Part shown: piece by piece, positions 27,496-33,964 of the stretch | How positions within the stretch are numbered: position 1 is the stretch's first letter | Layout of the letters: each line of letters starts with the position of its first letter | Source of the DNA: Terriglobales bacterium | Lineage (GTDB): Bacteria; Acidobacteriota; Terriglobia; Terriglobales; Acidobacteriaceae | DNA length: 64,000 nt | Direction: 5' to 3' | NCBI GenBank assembly: GCA_035573675.1 | Contig: DATMAB010000025.1 | Coordinates: 1-64,000, forward strand | Notes under the pieces: model-generated | What the model saw: only the letters and a program-made list of their open reading frames with translations | What the model was told of the DNA's origin: nothing | Databases searched by the model: none | Position numbers and translations under genes: made by a program

Positions 27496-28644
27496 ATGGA
27501 GTCCCGACCCACCTGGGCTGAAGTCTCGCTTCCCGCGCTGCGGCACAATTACTGCGCGGTGCGCGACTACGTCGCGCCGGCCACGGTCTGCGCTGTTCTC
27601 AAGGCCGATGCCTACGGCCACGGCGCCGTCGAGTGCGCGGAAGCCCTGGAATCCGAAGGCGCCACCTGGTTCGGCGTCACCTCCACCGGCGAAGGCGTCG
27701 AGCTTCGCCAGGCGGGCGTCAAGGCCCGCATCCTCCTGATGACCGGCTTCTGGCAGGGCGAGGAGGAAGATGTTCTGCGCTACGACCTCACCCCCGCGGT
27801 CTGGGAGCCCTTCCATCTCGAGCTGCTCGATCGCGCCGCCCTCAAGTTCAACCCCAAGGGCAAAGCGATTCCCGTCCACCTCAAGGTGGATACCGGCATG
27901 ACCCGCCTCGGCATCGCCTGGGAAGGCTCCGAAGGCATGGTCGAACTGCTCAAGTCCTTTCCTCGTCTCACGCTCGAGGGTGTGGCCACGCACCTGGCAT
28001 CCTCGGAAGTGGTCGGCGCCGCCGACGTCGAGCTGCAAAGCCGCCGTTTCGACCAGGTTCTGCAGGCGCTGGCCGGGCGCGGATGTTCGCCCAGGTACGT
28101 GCACATGGCCAACAGCGCCGCTGTAGCTCTCCGCCGGGCCGCCTGGAAGACCATGGTTCGCCCGGGCCTCTGTCTTTATGGCTACTTCCTCAAGTTTCGC
28201 TGCCCCGATGGCAAGGCCGCGGATTCCCCCCTGCCCTTCGCGCCGGAGCCGGTCCTCTCCTGGAAGACGCGCATCCTCACCCTGCGTGATGTTCTGGCCG
28301 GCCAGGCCCTGGGCTATGGCGGCACTTATGTGACGCCGGGACCATCCCGCATCGCCGTGCTTCCGGTGGGCTACGCCGATGGCCTCAACCGCCAGCTCTC
28401 CAACCGCGGCCGGGTTGTCGTCCGCGGCCAGTACGCCCGTATCGTCGGCAACATCTCGATGGATATCACTCTGATTGACGTCACCCACATTCCCGGCGCT
28501 GCCGTTGGCGACGAAGTCGTCCTGCTGGGCCGCAATGGCGGGCTCTCCGTCAGCCCCCACGAACACGCCGCCATTGCCGCCACCGTGCCCTACGAGATCC
28601 TCTGTGCCATCTCCAAGCGCGTGCCGCGCCGCTATCGGAAATAG
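27496..28644 (+). CDS. alr: Alanine racemase
   Basis: Alr interconverts L- and D-alanine for peptidoglycan. The 382-residue PLP enzyme has the Schiff-base Lys36 in AVLKADAYGHGAVE, the barrel motifs KVDTGMTRLGI and HMANSAAV, and the C-terminal domain catalytic Tyr in ALGYGGTYVTP. GYADGLNRQLSNRG and VGNISMDITLIDV complete the signature. It begins about 110 bases after dnaB, and the kinase-TPR gene follows about 80 bases later on the same strand. Start ATG 27496 fits the family N-terminus (RPTWAEVSLPALRHNY). Confidence 0.96.
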   Translation: MESRPTWAEVSLPALRHNYCAVRDYVAPATVCAVLKADAYGHGAVECAEALESEGATWFGVTSTGEGVELRQAGVKARILLMTGFWQGEEEDVLRYDLTPAVWEPFHLELLDRAALKFNPKGKAIPVHLKVDTGMTRLGIAWEGSEGMVELLKSFPRLTLEGVATHLASSEVVGAADVELQSRRFDQVLQALAGRGCSPRYVHMANSAAVALRRAAWKTMVRPGLCLYGYFLKFRCPDGKAADSPLPFAPEPVLSWKTRILTLRDVLAGQALGYGGTYVTPGPSRIAVLPVGYADGLNRQLSNRGRVVVRGQYARIVGNISMDITLIDVTHIPGAAVGDEVVLLGRNGGLSVSPHEHAAIAATVPYEILCAISKRVPRRYRK

Positions 28645-28725
28645 CCTCCAGCGATTGTTTCCCGGCGAGACGGGGAGTACGATGACGACATTCGGGGGCA
28701 CGCGACCTGCCGTGTGCTGGCCTCC

Positions 28726-31700
28726 ATGGTGGCCCCACAGAGAAAACCGGTGGACCTTCACTCCAGCGAAGACCTGGCAGGCTCGACCGTAGGCCGCTAC
28801 CTGGTGCGGGAGCGCCTGGGTGTCGGCGGTATGGGCGAGGTCTATCGCGCCGAGGACCCCACTCTGAAGCGCCCCGTCGCCCTCAAGCGCCTGGCCGCGC
28901 GTTTGCGCGCCGATCCCCACTATCGCCGCCGTTTCCTCAGCGAGGCCGAGCGCGCCTCCGCCCTGAACTGCGGTTCGATAGCCTCCATCTATGACGTCGT
29001 CGAGAAGGGCGACCAGGTCTTCCTGGTCATGGAGTACGTCGAGGGCGTTACCCTGCGCCGCCGGCTGCGGGAGTCCATACCGCTGTCCGAGTTCTACCGT
29101 ATCGCCGAACAGTGCCTGGAGGCCCTGGTGGCCGCCCACGAGAAGGGCATCATCCACCGTGACATCAAGCCGGAAAATATCATGCTCACCCCGACCGGCG
29201 AGGTGAAGGTGCTCGACTTCGGGCTGGCGCGCCGCCAACTGCTCTCCGAGGAGACCCTCGATAGCTCCCAGCTCACCAGTCACACCTCGAACCTGGCGGG
29301 CACGCCCGGCTACATGGCGCCGGAGCTGCTTCTGGAATCCGACCCCGGGCCGCGCACCGATATTTTTTCTCTCGGCGTGGTCTTCTTCGAGATGCTCCAC
29401 CGCCGCCATCCCTTCCTTACCCGCAAGCTGGTAGTGGGAGACGGGCAGATCCTGGGAGAGGAATCCGTCACCACCCACAGCGTGCGCGTGCCGGCGGCCC
29501 TAGAGGCCCTCATCAAGCGCATGCTGGCCAAGGACCCCGACGCCCGGCTGAGCTCCGCGCGCGAAGCCCTGACCGAATTGCGCGCCATCGAGCAGGGCGC
29601 CACTCTGCCGGTCGTGCCCGCCGGCATCACCATCCAGTTGCGCACCCGGTTCCTGAAGGTGGCGGCGATCGTGCTGGCGGCGGTGGTGGTAGGCGTCGTG
29701 GCCTGGCAGTTCCGCAGGCCGCCCGTGCCTCCCGAGCGCATCCGCGTCGCGGTGCTGCCCTTCAGCAACCAGACCGGCAACGCCGCGCTCGAGCGCTTCC
29801 GCATGACCCTCACCCACATGCTGGTGCTCGACCTCACTGGTTCGCCCAACGTCCAGGTGCTGCCCTATGAGCGTCTGTTGGAACTGAGCCGTGGCTTCGA
29901 GGCCGGCGGCAAGGATATCTATCAGCCCGAAGCCATCAAGACCGTGGCCGATTATTCCGGCTCCCGTTATGTCGTCGTGCCCTCCATGTTCGCCGCCGGC
30001 AACATGCTGCGCCTCTCCGCTGAATTTCGTGACGTGCGCACCGGCGAGACCGTGGCCGCCGCCAAAGCCGAGCGCGCCCTCTCCGGTTCACCCGAGGAGA
30101 CCTTCTACGCCATGCAGGATGAGCTTGCGGACAGCATCCAGGACTACTTCAAACGCGTCGGCCCCGGACAAACCTACGAAGCCCGGCCTCCCACCGGACG
30201 TCCGCGCACCGTCACCGCCGCCTTCAACTACACCGAGGCCAAGAACGCCCTCGCCCAGGGCAACACTGCACGCGCCCTCGGCTTCCTGCAGCGCGCCATT
30301 GATGAGGACCCGGACTTCGCCCTCGCCTACGCCCGCATGAGCCAGGTGTACGGGGCGCTCGGCTACGACGACCGTGCCCGCGAGCCTGCGGAAAAAGCCA
30401 GCCAGTTGATCCGGGGCGAGACCCCCGTCGTGGATGCGTTGCTCATCCAGGCCAACCTGGCCGAGCGCAACTACGACTACTCGCTGGCGGAACAGAAGTA
30501 CCAGGAACTCATCCGCCTCTACCCCGATGATCCTGATGCGCTCGCCGGCCTCGCCGCGGTGCACATCAACCAGGTGCGCTACGCGGCTGCCATCTCGCGC
30601 TACCTGGAAGCGCTCCGGCTCGATCCCAATTACGTGGTCGTGCACCAGAGATTGAGCTGGCTCTACACCCGTACCGGCGACCTGGCCAGGGCGGTCGAGC
30701 ACGGCCAGCGCGCCGTCGAACTCTGCCGTGCGATCAACAATCGCGAAGGTGAAGTAGACGCTTTGCTCAATCTCGGCGAGATCTACCGGGTCAAGGGAGA
30801 TGCCGCCAAGGCCTGGGAGACTGCGCAGGACGCCTCCCGCGTGGCGCAGTCGCTGGGCTATGAGGCCTCCTTGTTGGCCACGGAAAAGTTCCTCGGCGAC
30901 GTCCTGGCTTCACAGGGAAAACTGGAGGAAGCCCGCCGCCACTATCTTCCCGTTATCGAAACCGGCGCCGAGGTGCGCAACAATCGGTTTCAGGCTCAAA
31001 CCCTCATGAACATCGGCGTCACCTACTGGAACCAGGGTGACCTTGCCAAAGCCAGGGACTACTTCGAGCAGAGTCTCGCGCAATGGCGGCGTTATGGCGA
31101 GTACCGCGACGTGCCGGCACTCCGCCAGCGCGCTCAGCTTCTCGCCAACTTCGGCGCTCTCCTCATGCAGTCCGGTCCCGACCCCGAGCGCGGTGCGCGT
31201 TACGCGCAGGAGGCGCTTTCCCTGTTTCGGACCATGGGCGAAACCTATTGGGAGGCGCTCAGCTTGAGGAATCTCGGCACGCACAGCCTGAACGCCGGCT
31301 CCTTCCAGCAGGCCAACCAGTCGCTTCAACAGGCCCGCGATCTTTTCCAGAAGGTGCAGGCCGGCCCCCAGGTCACTCAGGCCACTTACTTCCAGGCGAG
31401 CGCATTCTTTTACCAGAATCGCTATCAGCTGGCTCGCCTGGCCGCCGATGCCGCCCTGGCACAGGCTCGGGAGGCGAAGCACCCCTTTCAGGTCCCCAAC
31501 GTGGAACTCCTGAGCGGCTGGATCTATCTGCGTTTGGGCGACACCGCGCGCGCTCGTTCGCTGTTGGAGGAGGCGCTGCAAGCGGCCCTGAAGGGCGGGT
31601 ACGGCGAGCTCCTTCCGGACGCCTATGCGGCACTGGGCGAACTGCATCTCGAACTCGGCGACCGTGGTCGCGCGCGCTCCTACTGGCAAAAGGGCGCAGT

Positions 31701-32169
31701 CCTCTGGAAGGAGCCCAGCGTTTCTGAGGCTTCCATCGAAGCACGGTCGAATCTGGGATTGCTTCTTGCCGAAGAAGGCACCGCAGATCGCGGCCTGGCG
31801 GAATGTCGCGCCGCCTTGCAGGGCGCGCGCCGCCTCCAGCACTACCACACCATCGCACGCGCCACGCTCAACCTGGCTCAAGTGCACCTCTTGCGTCATG
31901 AAGCCAAAATGGCGCTGGAAGTCCTGAACCCGCTCCTTTCTGCGCAGGCTGACCTGGGCGGCGAATGGCAGGCCCGAGCCTGGTTCTTGCAGGCCCAGGC
32001 GCTTGCAAATCTGGGCCAAAAGGAGCAGGCTGGTGCGGCTCGGCAGCGCGCCCGGGAGGCTATTCTGCAGTTGCAGCGCGAGTTGGATCCCGCCGACCGC
32101 CAGGGCTTCGCTTCCCGCCGCGATGTCCGCGCGATCCTCGAGGAGCCGCCCCTCCGGCGCGCCTCCTGA
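28726..32169 (+). CDS. Membrane Ser/Thr protein kinase with TPR domain
   Basis: This protein of about 1147 residues starts with a full Hanks-type kinase domain: glycine loop [13 protein letters not shown], the ATP-contacting Lys in VALKRLA, catalytic loop [17 protein letters not shown] and [16 protein letters not shown] single membrane segment ([19 protein letters not shown], about residues 305-325) follows. An adenylate-cyclase-type TolB-like N-terminal region ([15 protein letters not shown]) and more than ten TPR repeats make up the rest. The sensor part would lie outside the membrane. Such TPR-bearing kinases are abundant in Acidobacteriota. I use ATG 28726; an in-frame GTG at 28714 is an alternative. 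Two small proteins of unknown function follow. Confidence 0.92.
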
Positions 32170-32224
32170 ACCGTTATCATTACCGGCCTCTTAGTAAATC
32201 TCAGCGAGCCAAGGAGAGTGCTTT

Positions 32225-32536
32225 ATGCCAGGTGGGACAGGAGAGATCGGCGGCGGTAGCTGCAACGTGAGCTTCCGATGTCCGGGCGTAAGACCCGCGT
32301 GGAGACCCCACGGCGGCAACCCGAACCCTGTGGGTGCAGCTGGCGATGCTGCCGAACTTGAGGATACGGCGCAGGCGTGTCCCTTCGACGTTCTGGTCAC
32401 TTTCCCAGACAAGACGGCGCGAATCGTCACCGTGGACAGAGGCAAAAAGATCACGTTTCATTGGCCGTGGCCCCCGGCGGCCTCCACGGCAAAGCGCAAG
32501 CCAAAAGCGAAAGGTAAGCGCCGGCGTTCCAAGTGA
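32225..32536 (+). CDS. Small protein of unknown function, paralogue 1 (GEIGGGSC type)
   Basis: The 103-residue protein begins MPGGTGEIGGGSCNVSFRC, then a Gly/Asn-rich turn, ACPFDVLVTFPDKTARI and KKITFHWPW. It ends with a basic Lys/Arg tail. AAGGAG lies 10 bases before the ATG. It shares start, two Cys and overall plan with the next gene (32577-32816), so the two arose by duplication. Alternating hydrophobic residues suggest a small beta sandwich. No signal peptide or known domain is seen. Position after the kinase-TPR gene suggests a functional link, for example as substrate or accessory protein, but I do not know the function. Confidence 0.75.
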   Translation: MPGGTGEIGGGSCNVSFRCPGVRPAWRPHGGNPNPVGAAGDAAELEDTAQACPFDVLVTFPDKTARIVTVDRGKKITFHWPWPPAASTAKRKPKAKGKRRRSK

Positions 32537-32576
32537 GAGTTTCCGGAGCAGGGTTCGACCAAAAGGAGAACGCAAT

Positions 32577-32816
32577 ATGCCAGGCAGCGGAGAAATCGGC
32601 GGCGGTAGTTGCACGGTAAAGTTTCGAGCCAATGGCGTAATACCCACGGCCAGTCCGAACGCTGGTGGGGATGCCGAAGTCTATGACAGCGGGCAGGGTT
32701 GTCCCTTTGACGTGATCATTACCGTCGGTAACAGTACTGGGCAGCCAACTCCACTGCAAGCCGGCAGGTACAAGGTTACGCTGAACGCAGGCGACGAGGT
32801 GAAGTTTAGGTTCTGA
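32577..32816 (+). CDS. Small protein of unknown function, paralogue 2 (GEIGGGSC type)
   Basis: This 79-residue protein begins MPGSGEIGGGSCTVKFRANG and includes GDAEVYDSGQGCPFDVIITV, an insertion rich in Thr/Pro/Gln, and ends YKVTLNAGDEVKFRF. Cys12 and Cys43 align with cysteines in the upstream paralogue. AAAAGGAG precedes the ATG at 32577. An open frame extending upstream to 32334 overlaps the other paralogue and is not used. It looks like a compact all-beta domain. No function is known to me. Confidence 0.78.
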   Translation: MPGSGEIGGGSCTVKFRANGVIPTASPNAGGDAEVYDSGQGCPFDVIITVGNSTGQPTPLQAGRYKVTLNAGDEVKFRF

Positions 32817-32851
32817 CGTTACGCCTTCTGTAGCGCTGCTATATTCATGGC

Positions 32852-33964
32852 GTGCCGCGCGGCCTCTACCGCCGCTGGATGCACGACTGGGAGACCCGCC
32901 TCACCACGCGGGACACCAATCGTGTCGTCCGCCCGTTCGAGCTGGGACTGGAGTGGACGCGTGGGTGGCCCCTTGCCAACGGCCACCCTCCCTCCGCCGG
33001 GCCCGGTCAGGAAGAGTTCCTGCGCGAACTCAACCGGCGCATTGTCGCCGAAAGCGACGTCTTCTTCTCCTATCAGACACCCCGCGACTTCCGCCTGGAG
33101 CGTCGTATCGCTGAACTTCATCCCACCGGCAACGGCCAGCCCCGCATCGCCTCCAGAGAGAGAAGGGAAGCGACCTTCCTGCGCTTCACCTCGCCCGTCT
33201 CCACGCCCCATGCGGAAAACAACCTGGTCTGCGCGCGCTGGTTCCCGGCCCGCGGCCGCCGGGCCGTGGTGGTGCTGCCGCAATGGAACTCGGATGCGGA
33301 AGGGCACAACGGGCTCTGCCGCATCCTGAATTTCGCCGGTGTTGCCGCCTTGCGGCTCAGCCTGCCCTATCACGATGTCCGCAAGCCGCCCGAGACCGAG
33401 CGCGCCGACTATGCCGTCAGTTCCAACGTGGCCCGCACCATCGACGCCGCCCGCCAGGCCGTCATCGACGTGCGCTGTTGCCTGGATTGGCTTGAGCGAC
33501 AGAACTACGACTGGCTGGGCGTCGTGGGCACCAGCCTTGGCTCCTGCTATGCCTTCCTGGCCACGGCGCACGAGCCCCGCCTGCGCGTTAACGTCTTCAA
33601 CCATGCCTCGCTGCATTTCGCCGACGTCATCTGGAGCGGCCAGTCCACCCGCCACATCCGCGCCGCTATCCCGGCTGATCTCACCCTCGACCGCCTGCGC
33701 AGCCTGTGGTCCGCCATCAGCCCCAGCTCTTACTTTGATAAGTTCGCAGAGCAGTCAGCGAAGAAGTCGCTCATCGTCTACGCGACGCACGACCTGACGT
33801 TCCTGCCCGAGGTCTCCCGAGCCATCATCGCCGAGTTCCGCCGCCGAAGGCTCGACCTCAGCGTCCGCGTCCTCCCCTGTGGCCACTACACCACCGGCGA
33901 AGCTCCCTTCAAATACCTTGACGCGTACTACATCGCCGCGTTTTTGGACCACGCGTTCGCCTGA
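32852..33964 (+). CDS. Alpha/beta hydrolase-like protein
   Basis: The 370-residue protein has an alpha/beta hydrolase core in its second half. A nucleophile elbow GTSLGS follows the strand LGVVG (near residue 230). A possible catalytic Asp lies in VYATHDLTFLP and a His in LPCGHYTTGEAP. Residues 1-120 form a distinctive N-terminal region (WMHDWETRLTTRDTNRVVRPFELGLEW). I see no signal peptide, so it should be cytosolic. The start GTG 32852 directly follows the paralogue gene by 35 bases, suggesting one transcript. The substrate is unknown. Confidence 0.8.
   Translation: MPRGLYRRWMHDWETRLTTRDTNRVVRPFELGLEWTRGWPLANGHPPSAGPGQEEFLRELNRRIVAESDVFFSYQTPRDFRLERRIAELHPTGNGQPRIASRERREATFLRFTSPVSTPHAENNLVCARWFPARGRRAVVVLPQWNSDAEGHNGLCRILNFAGVAALRLSLPYHDVRKPPETERADYAVSSNVARTIDAARQAVIDVRCCLDWLERQNYDWLGVVGTSLGSCYAFLATAHEPRLRVNVFNHASLHFADVIWSGQSTRHIRAAIPADLTLDRLRSLWSAISPSSYFDKFAEQSAKKSLIVYATHDLTFLPEVSRAIIAEFRRRRLDLSVRVLPCGHYTTGEAPFKYLDAYYIAAFLDHAFA

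Follow-up and report, generated by a model that had tools for sequence, protein, structure and literature searches.

Two small tandem paralogues behind a membrane kinase gene in Acidobacteriaceae: a family seen so far in one genus

The locus analyzed here raises the question of what two short tandem genes directly behind a large membrane kinase gene encode, and whether they belong functionally to this kinase. The window, i.e. the whole stretch of 64,000 nucleotides that was analyzed, had been annotated in a preliminary description as harbouring two small paralogues of unknown function between a kinase-TPR gene and an alpha/beta hydrolase gene. We asked whether both frames are genuine genes, whether they can be assigned to a known family, how far they are distributed, and which role they might play next to the kinase.

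Anatomy and evolution of the small genes

The first small gene, P1, is located at 32225..32536 on the forward strand and would encode a protein of 103 amino acids (pI 10.3), in which an N-terminal MPGGTGEIGGGSC is followed by a variable middle, the CPFDV core and a basic tail. The second, P2, is situated on the forward strand at 32577..32816 and would encode 79 amino acids (pI 5.0); it has the same type of N-terminus and CPFDV core, is devoid of the basic tail and carries a longer stretch past the core. The start of P2 is the ATG at 32577, while the automated list of open reading frames opens this frame too early, at 32334. Each start is preceded by an AAGGAG sequence resembling a ribosome-binding site, at 32211..32216 (forward strand) for P1, where it is identical in the sister species, and at 32563..32568 (forward strand) for P2, where the sister species likewise has AAGGAG. 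The search of the own genome with P2 identified P1 with an E value of 4.4e-11 and 51% identity over query residues 3-66 as the sole match at E<=10, the pairwise alignment of both proteins gave 50% identity, and a four-row profile of the family returned one extra match in the own genome, at a not credible E value of 0.375. Both frames, their ribosome sites and this degree of identity bear out the notion of tandem small paralogues. Both proteins have MPG(G)xGEIGGGSCxVxFR close to their N-terminus and CPFDV as a central motif, hence the shared MPG(G)xGEIGGGSC start and CPFDV(L/I) core named in the preliminary description are present as stated, as are the differences in the basic tail of P1 and in insertions. 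As a DNA pattern, which was derived from the P1 and P2 sequences themselves, the N-terminal motif occurs twice in the window compared to a mean of 0.00 in 100 shuffles. A search of the conserved 5' ends of the small genes for an RNA element gave no Rfam match at E<=1, and the scan for promoters and terminators found 0 and 3, compared to 0.6 and 3.4 in shuffles.

The first gene of the block (28714..32169, forward strand) encodes a membrane Ser/Thr kinase of 1151 amino acids with TPR repeats. It comprises a kinase domain at about residues 31-286, one hydrophobic membrane-type stretch at about 313-331 and TPR repeats at about 512-1110; it matches Pfam Pkinase at 3.3e-50 as well as TPR families, and the catalytic motifs GxGxxG, HRD, DFG and APE are present. 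Because only the single segment around 313-331 is of membrane type, the kinase domain is expected in the cytoplasm and the TPR part on the opposite side of the membrane. Hydrophobic segments are absent from P1 and P2 (best 19-residue means of 0.75 and 0.48), so both proteins should be found on the kinase side of the membrane.

The sister species, which is the sole other genome of the genus examined (2 of 2 genomes together with the own one), has one contig that ends with the kinase, P1 and the first 16 codons of P2, and a second contig at whose beginning the last 58 residues of a paralogue are encoded, with the hydrolase gene behind them. Thus, the small genes are found directly behind the kinase in both of the two genomes carrying them. 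With 33% identity to P2, the paralogue tail could be either P2 itself in a diverged form or an additional copy. As the contig break of the sister falls within the array of small genes, shortly after the repeated 5' end, more copies than those seen may exist there. The N-terminal cysteine is present in all four starts, while the second one occurs in three of the four sequences; the sister P1 has a Met at this position and an extra cysteine at CRVCF. The two shared cysteines reported before are therefore correct for P1 and P2 of the window, but they do not hold as a strict signature of the family. Because the second cysteine is replaced by Met in the sister P1, a conserved disulphide or metal pair seems unlikely.

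Identity between the species is 89.6% for the kinase (dN/dS 0.10), 87.5% for the hydrolase (dN/dS 0.14), 93.2% for the hydratase and 92.2% for the isomerase, while P1 shows only 61.9% identity and a dN/dS of 0.41. The DNA agreement amounts to 188 of 210 bases at the kinase end and 48 of 50 from the P1 ribosome site to codon 13, and to 50 of 99 aligned bases in P1 codons 14-52 and 109 of 153 in codons 53-103. At the protein level, no difference occurs in the first 13 residues of P1 compared to 37 among 84 aligned positions elsewhere (Fisher p 0.0015). The silent sites of these first 13 codons are also quiet between the species (1 change in about 9.7 sites). The comparison of P1 with P2 over codons 1-13 gave a pS of 0.42 and a pN of 0.05, hence the N-terminal motif is, judged from these codons, constrained at the protein level. 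The dN/dS of 0.41 between the species likewise speaks for purifying selection on the protein sequence of P1. Positive selection is unsupported for the P1 middle (codons 14-51) between species (pN 0.43, pS 0.64) as well as for the middle of P1 versus P2 (pN 0.36, pS 0.50). The comparison of the middle with the sister tail, in which pN exceeded pS (0.67-0.70 versus 0.46-0.63), covers just 18-19 poorly alignable codons and was not relied on.

These results also bear on the question of whether P1 and P2 could be chance open frames instead of genes. Such an explanation could refer to the lack of homologues outside the genus in the searches and to structure models of low confidence (both described below). 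However, P1 has retained its reading frame, start, stop and ribosome site although the synonymous kinase sites differ by 41% between the species, its dN/dS is 0.41, and there are two paralogues in one genome. We regard chance frames as very improbable. Both genes look genuinely coding, because each has a ribosome site and P1 is intact in the sister species, with a dN/dS of about 0.41.

Search for homologues and known families

The distribution of the family was analyzed in four overlapping draws of genomes (150 relatives, 396 of the phylum, 398 of the family and 399 of the class; own genome and sister counted in), none of which yielded a credible homologue of P1 or P2 outside the genus. The single-protein search matched 15 of the 150 relatives at E<=0.1, with the own genome and the sister alone below 0.001. 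The four-row profile, for which up to 12 candidates per genome were scored, matched 7 of the 396 genomes of the phylum at E<=0.1 (the sister is absent from this draw), 40 of the 398 of the family at E<=0.5 and 7 of the 399 of the class at E<=0.05; matches below 0.01 were restricted to the own genome and, where drawn, the sister. The weak matches elsewhere (E values of 0.004 and up) are partial, and several fall within long frames or run across stops. Larger collections were scanned as well; these scans demand the motif or fair similarity, and genomes near to the own one may be missing from the collections. In the genome-contig collection, which covers 84,980 species by its description, and in viral contigs, 15 and 25 stretches, respectively, fit a CPF-type pattern, of which none was confirmed. 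The GEIGGGSC-type pattern occurred in 46 stretches of the genome contigs, whose translations are without the rest of the protein; in viral contigs its longer form had 0 matches and its shorter form 7, with no homologue on translation. The tblastn searches of plasmids and phages gave best E values of 1 and 4, respectively, which were taken as chance. Among the scanned loci, L072 (a Patescibacteria MAG) and L100 (an uncultured bacterium) have frames sharing YIGEMGGGSCC and similar surroundings, which are not homologues of P1 or P2 as far as read. Judged by these searches, P1 and P2 form a genus-restricted (orphan) family in the genomes and collections covered.

Taxonomically restricted or orphan gene families of bacteria are short, confined to a genus, fast-evolving and without known domain. 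P1 and P2 resemble such families by being short, found in one genus in our searches, fast-evolving and without known domain, but they differ in their tandem arrangement and in their fixed place behind a kinase gene within the block. Among the matches listed, the accessible parts of publications on orphan genes or kinases held nothing on this locus.

The view that the pair has no known family gained support, since a clear match to a known domain was sought by family and PDB-sequence searches and did not occur. P1 and P2 gave no significant match in Pfam (best E 0.074), NCBIfam (0.098), PDB sequences (0.066), PHROGs or PADLOC (none in the latter two), and the profile of four members reached a best E of 0.18 against the PDB. 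The Pfam value refers to DUF7177 (PF23801), whose model of 83 positions aligns from 20 to 71 with residues 24-76 of P2 at E 0.074. With 13.8 bits compared to a cut-off of 27, and with just one of the four members matching, membership in DUF7177 was rejected. Structure models calculated from the two own sequences show strands and no helix, at pLDDT values of 45.6 and 48.2, which makes them unusable. A small beta fold is nevertheless plausible for both proteins.

A second likeness concerns the protein V of inoviruses (PF02303, helix-destabilising protein), with which the sister tail shares a hairpin pattern of about 30 residues at E 0.0011. It might be considered that P1 and P2 are small nucleic-acid-binding, OB-like beta proteins acting in the manner of protein V, with the basic tail of P1 (pI 10.3) adding charge. 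In line with this explanation, the sister tail also matches a PHROGs family of ssDNA-binding proteins at E 0.36 and, in a single pairwise BLASTP, M13 protein V at E 5e-05 with 14 of 37 residues identical; moreover, with a profile of eight phage proteins none of 500 shuffles reached the score of the tail and 3 of 500 reached that of P2. However, P1 as the copy with the basic tail performed no better than shuffles (246 of 500 were as good), for the sister P1 12 of 500 were as good, and the probability obtained by profile comparison was 0.4% for a single phage protein and 1.1% (13 columns) for the profile of eight. Furthermore, the sister tail also matches flagellin (E 0.0036), FimG (0.13) and Dr-adhesin (0.04), hence the resemblance to protein V is read as a general hairpin pattern. 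An OB-like function is thus held unlikely. Membership in the protein V family was rejected, because the sister tail as the best member reached 19.6 bits compared to the cut-off of 25, only this one of the four members matches, while P1, P2 and the sister P1 were unlisted at E<=5 or 10, and the N-terminal motif of the P1/P2 family is absent there; similarity at the profile level was rejected by hhalign (1.1% probability over 13 columns, eight-phage-protein profile).

The kinase points to another alternative. Its matches below cut-off include TIGR04510 (75.2 compared to 400 bits) and lanthionine synthetases, which align via the kinase and TPR parts. Together with the constant N-terminus, the variable middle and the tandem copies, this could suggest that P1 and P2 give rise to modified peptides or form a small pair of toxin and immunity protein, in which the constant N-terminus would serve as leader and the variable rest as product. 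However, no enzyme for peptide modification and no transporter is found among the nine annotated genes around the pair, proteins of 79-103 amino acids with a conserved inner core are long for a core peptide, and P1 and P2 matched no model of a toxin or antitoxin. This explanation appears to be quite unlikely, even a little less credible than the OB-like one.

A variable junction between alr and the hydrolase gene

The block is bordered on its left side by the alanine racemase gene alr (27496..28644, forward strand; Pfam Ala_racemase_N 4.2e-62, and synteny) and on its right side by the gene for an alpha/beta hydrolase near the RcgR family (32852..33964, forward strand; NCBIfam NF047337, E 4e-51). 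Hence, kinase-TPR and hydrolase genes as neighbours of the pair, which had been proposed before, are real according to their family matches. Further genes around the block are dnaB, an enoyl-CoA hydratase, a LacAB/RpiB-type isomerase and a serine hydroxymethyltransferase gene. Kinase, P1 and P2 are all encoded on one strand, with spacers of 55 bases between kinase and P1, 40 between P1 and P2, and 35 between P2 and the hydrolase gene, while the corresponding first two spacers of the sister species comprise 57 and 37 bases.

While the hydrolase gene is widespread (90 of 100 genomes, including the own one and the sister), the kinase block is not, hence the hydrolase does not belong to the unit of kinase and small genes. 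Among the 28 best-matching hydrolase loci of 88 other genomes, alr was found upstream of the hydrolase gene in 23, without the block of kinase, P1 and P2; neither the small-gene profile nor the kinase matched in any of these 23. The distance is up to 1.5 kb in 19 of the 28 loci (gaps of at most 343 bases in 15 and of 700-965 in 4). Eight of the remaining loci have longer flanks, in which alr is found 1.4-2.9 kb upstream in 4 and not within about 10 kb in 4; the contig of the one left is too short for longer flanks. The stretch between alr and the hydrolase gene, which corresponds to 28644-32852 here, contains differing accessory genes across relatives, as expected of an insertion-prone site. 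At L134 this gap encodes a DNA methylase with an Mrr-like part, at L138 BrnA, at L040 both BrnT and BrnA, at L139 a PEP-CTERM protein and at L141 a Band 7 protein. Two further loci, where alr is out of reach, have the gene of a PD40-repeat kinase (L135) or of BrnT (L140) upstream of the hydrolase gene. Within the material examined, the block of kinase, P1 and P2 is genus-specific and situated at a variable junction.

The distribution of the kinase is as narrow as that of the small genes. At E<=1e-60, a search of 61 genomes recovered its TPR part from the own genome and the sister alone. Among 397 genomes of the order, with two candidates scored in each, a third genome joined these two at E<=1e-50; its protein is 25% identical and has no small homologue in its flanks. 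The small genes and this kinase have thus been found together in one genus only, hence their co-occurrence amounts to a single evolutionary event. Flanks of up to 1.5 kb around 22 further kinase matches in this genome contained no small homologue (best E 1.2), so a small partner is not a general requirement of such kinases.

Partners of the kinase or passengers

Taking these findings together, P1 and P2 may represent a family, seen so far in one genus, which entered or arose with the membrane kinase as one accessory block and could act as cytoplasmic substrates or adaptors of this kinase. Gene order, spacing and the shared distribution of the kinase and the small genes were counted in support, as were the purifying selection on P1, the catalytic motifs of the kinase and the expected location of both small proteins on the kinase side; the 22 kinase matches lacking a small neighbour were counted against it. 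It is equally conceivable that P1 and P2 are accessory passengers, which landed with or beside the kinase at the insertion-prone junction and have an unrelated function of their own. Such a scenario would fit the other accessory genes that relatives hold at this site, including those upstream of the hydrolase gene where alr is out of reach, and the pace of change of P1, which is far faster than that of the kinase (62% versus 90% identity) and would be odd for a tightly fitted partner. On the other hand, the same strand, the similarly short spacers in both species and the restricted distribution equal to that of the kinase speak against mere passengers. The co-occurrence in one lineage, i.e. 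two genomes, was likewise counted against a partnership, since hitch-hiking would give the same picture. Because the linkage amounts to one event in one lineage, the role as kinase partners is proposed tentatively, and we consider it level with, and no likelier than, the passenger scenario.

If P1 and P2 are partners of the kinase, their place would be on its cytoplasmic side, where they would serve it as dedicated substrates or adaptors. The kinase would sense via its extracytoplasmic TPR part and pass the signal on by phosphorylating or binding P1 and P2. The near-invariant MPGxGEIGGGSCxVxF might serve as a shared docking or assembly element and the CPFDV part might form a small beta core, while the fast-changing middle and the basic tail of P1 could meet the target, possibly an acidic membrane lipid or nucleic acid. 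A more far-reaching version, which we regard as rather unlikely, would be that the kinase travels with multi-copy partners, in which a constant docking N-terminus is combined with a diversifying, retargeting body and the copy number changes via recombination at the repeated 5' ends.

Our data support the notion that P1 and P2 represent a real, undescribed and narrow family of small proteins with a clear candidate partner. To our knowledge, many membrane kinases exist in these bacteria and few of their targets are known. If P1 and P2 are true substrates, the locus would provide a compact bacterial pair of kinase and substrate, and if the multi-copy version is correct, it would represent a modular kinase output of a type new for bacteria. 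If they are not substrates of the kinase, the block would simply add to the accessory inserts restricted to a genus, at a junction where several relatives harbour differing accessory genes.

Finally, the hydrolase at the right border scores 174.1 bits against NF047337, i.e. below the cut-off of 182. It lies near the RcgR family, whose members are putative quorum lactone hydrolases, and its wide presence suggests a general role.
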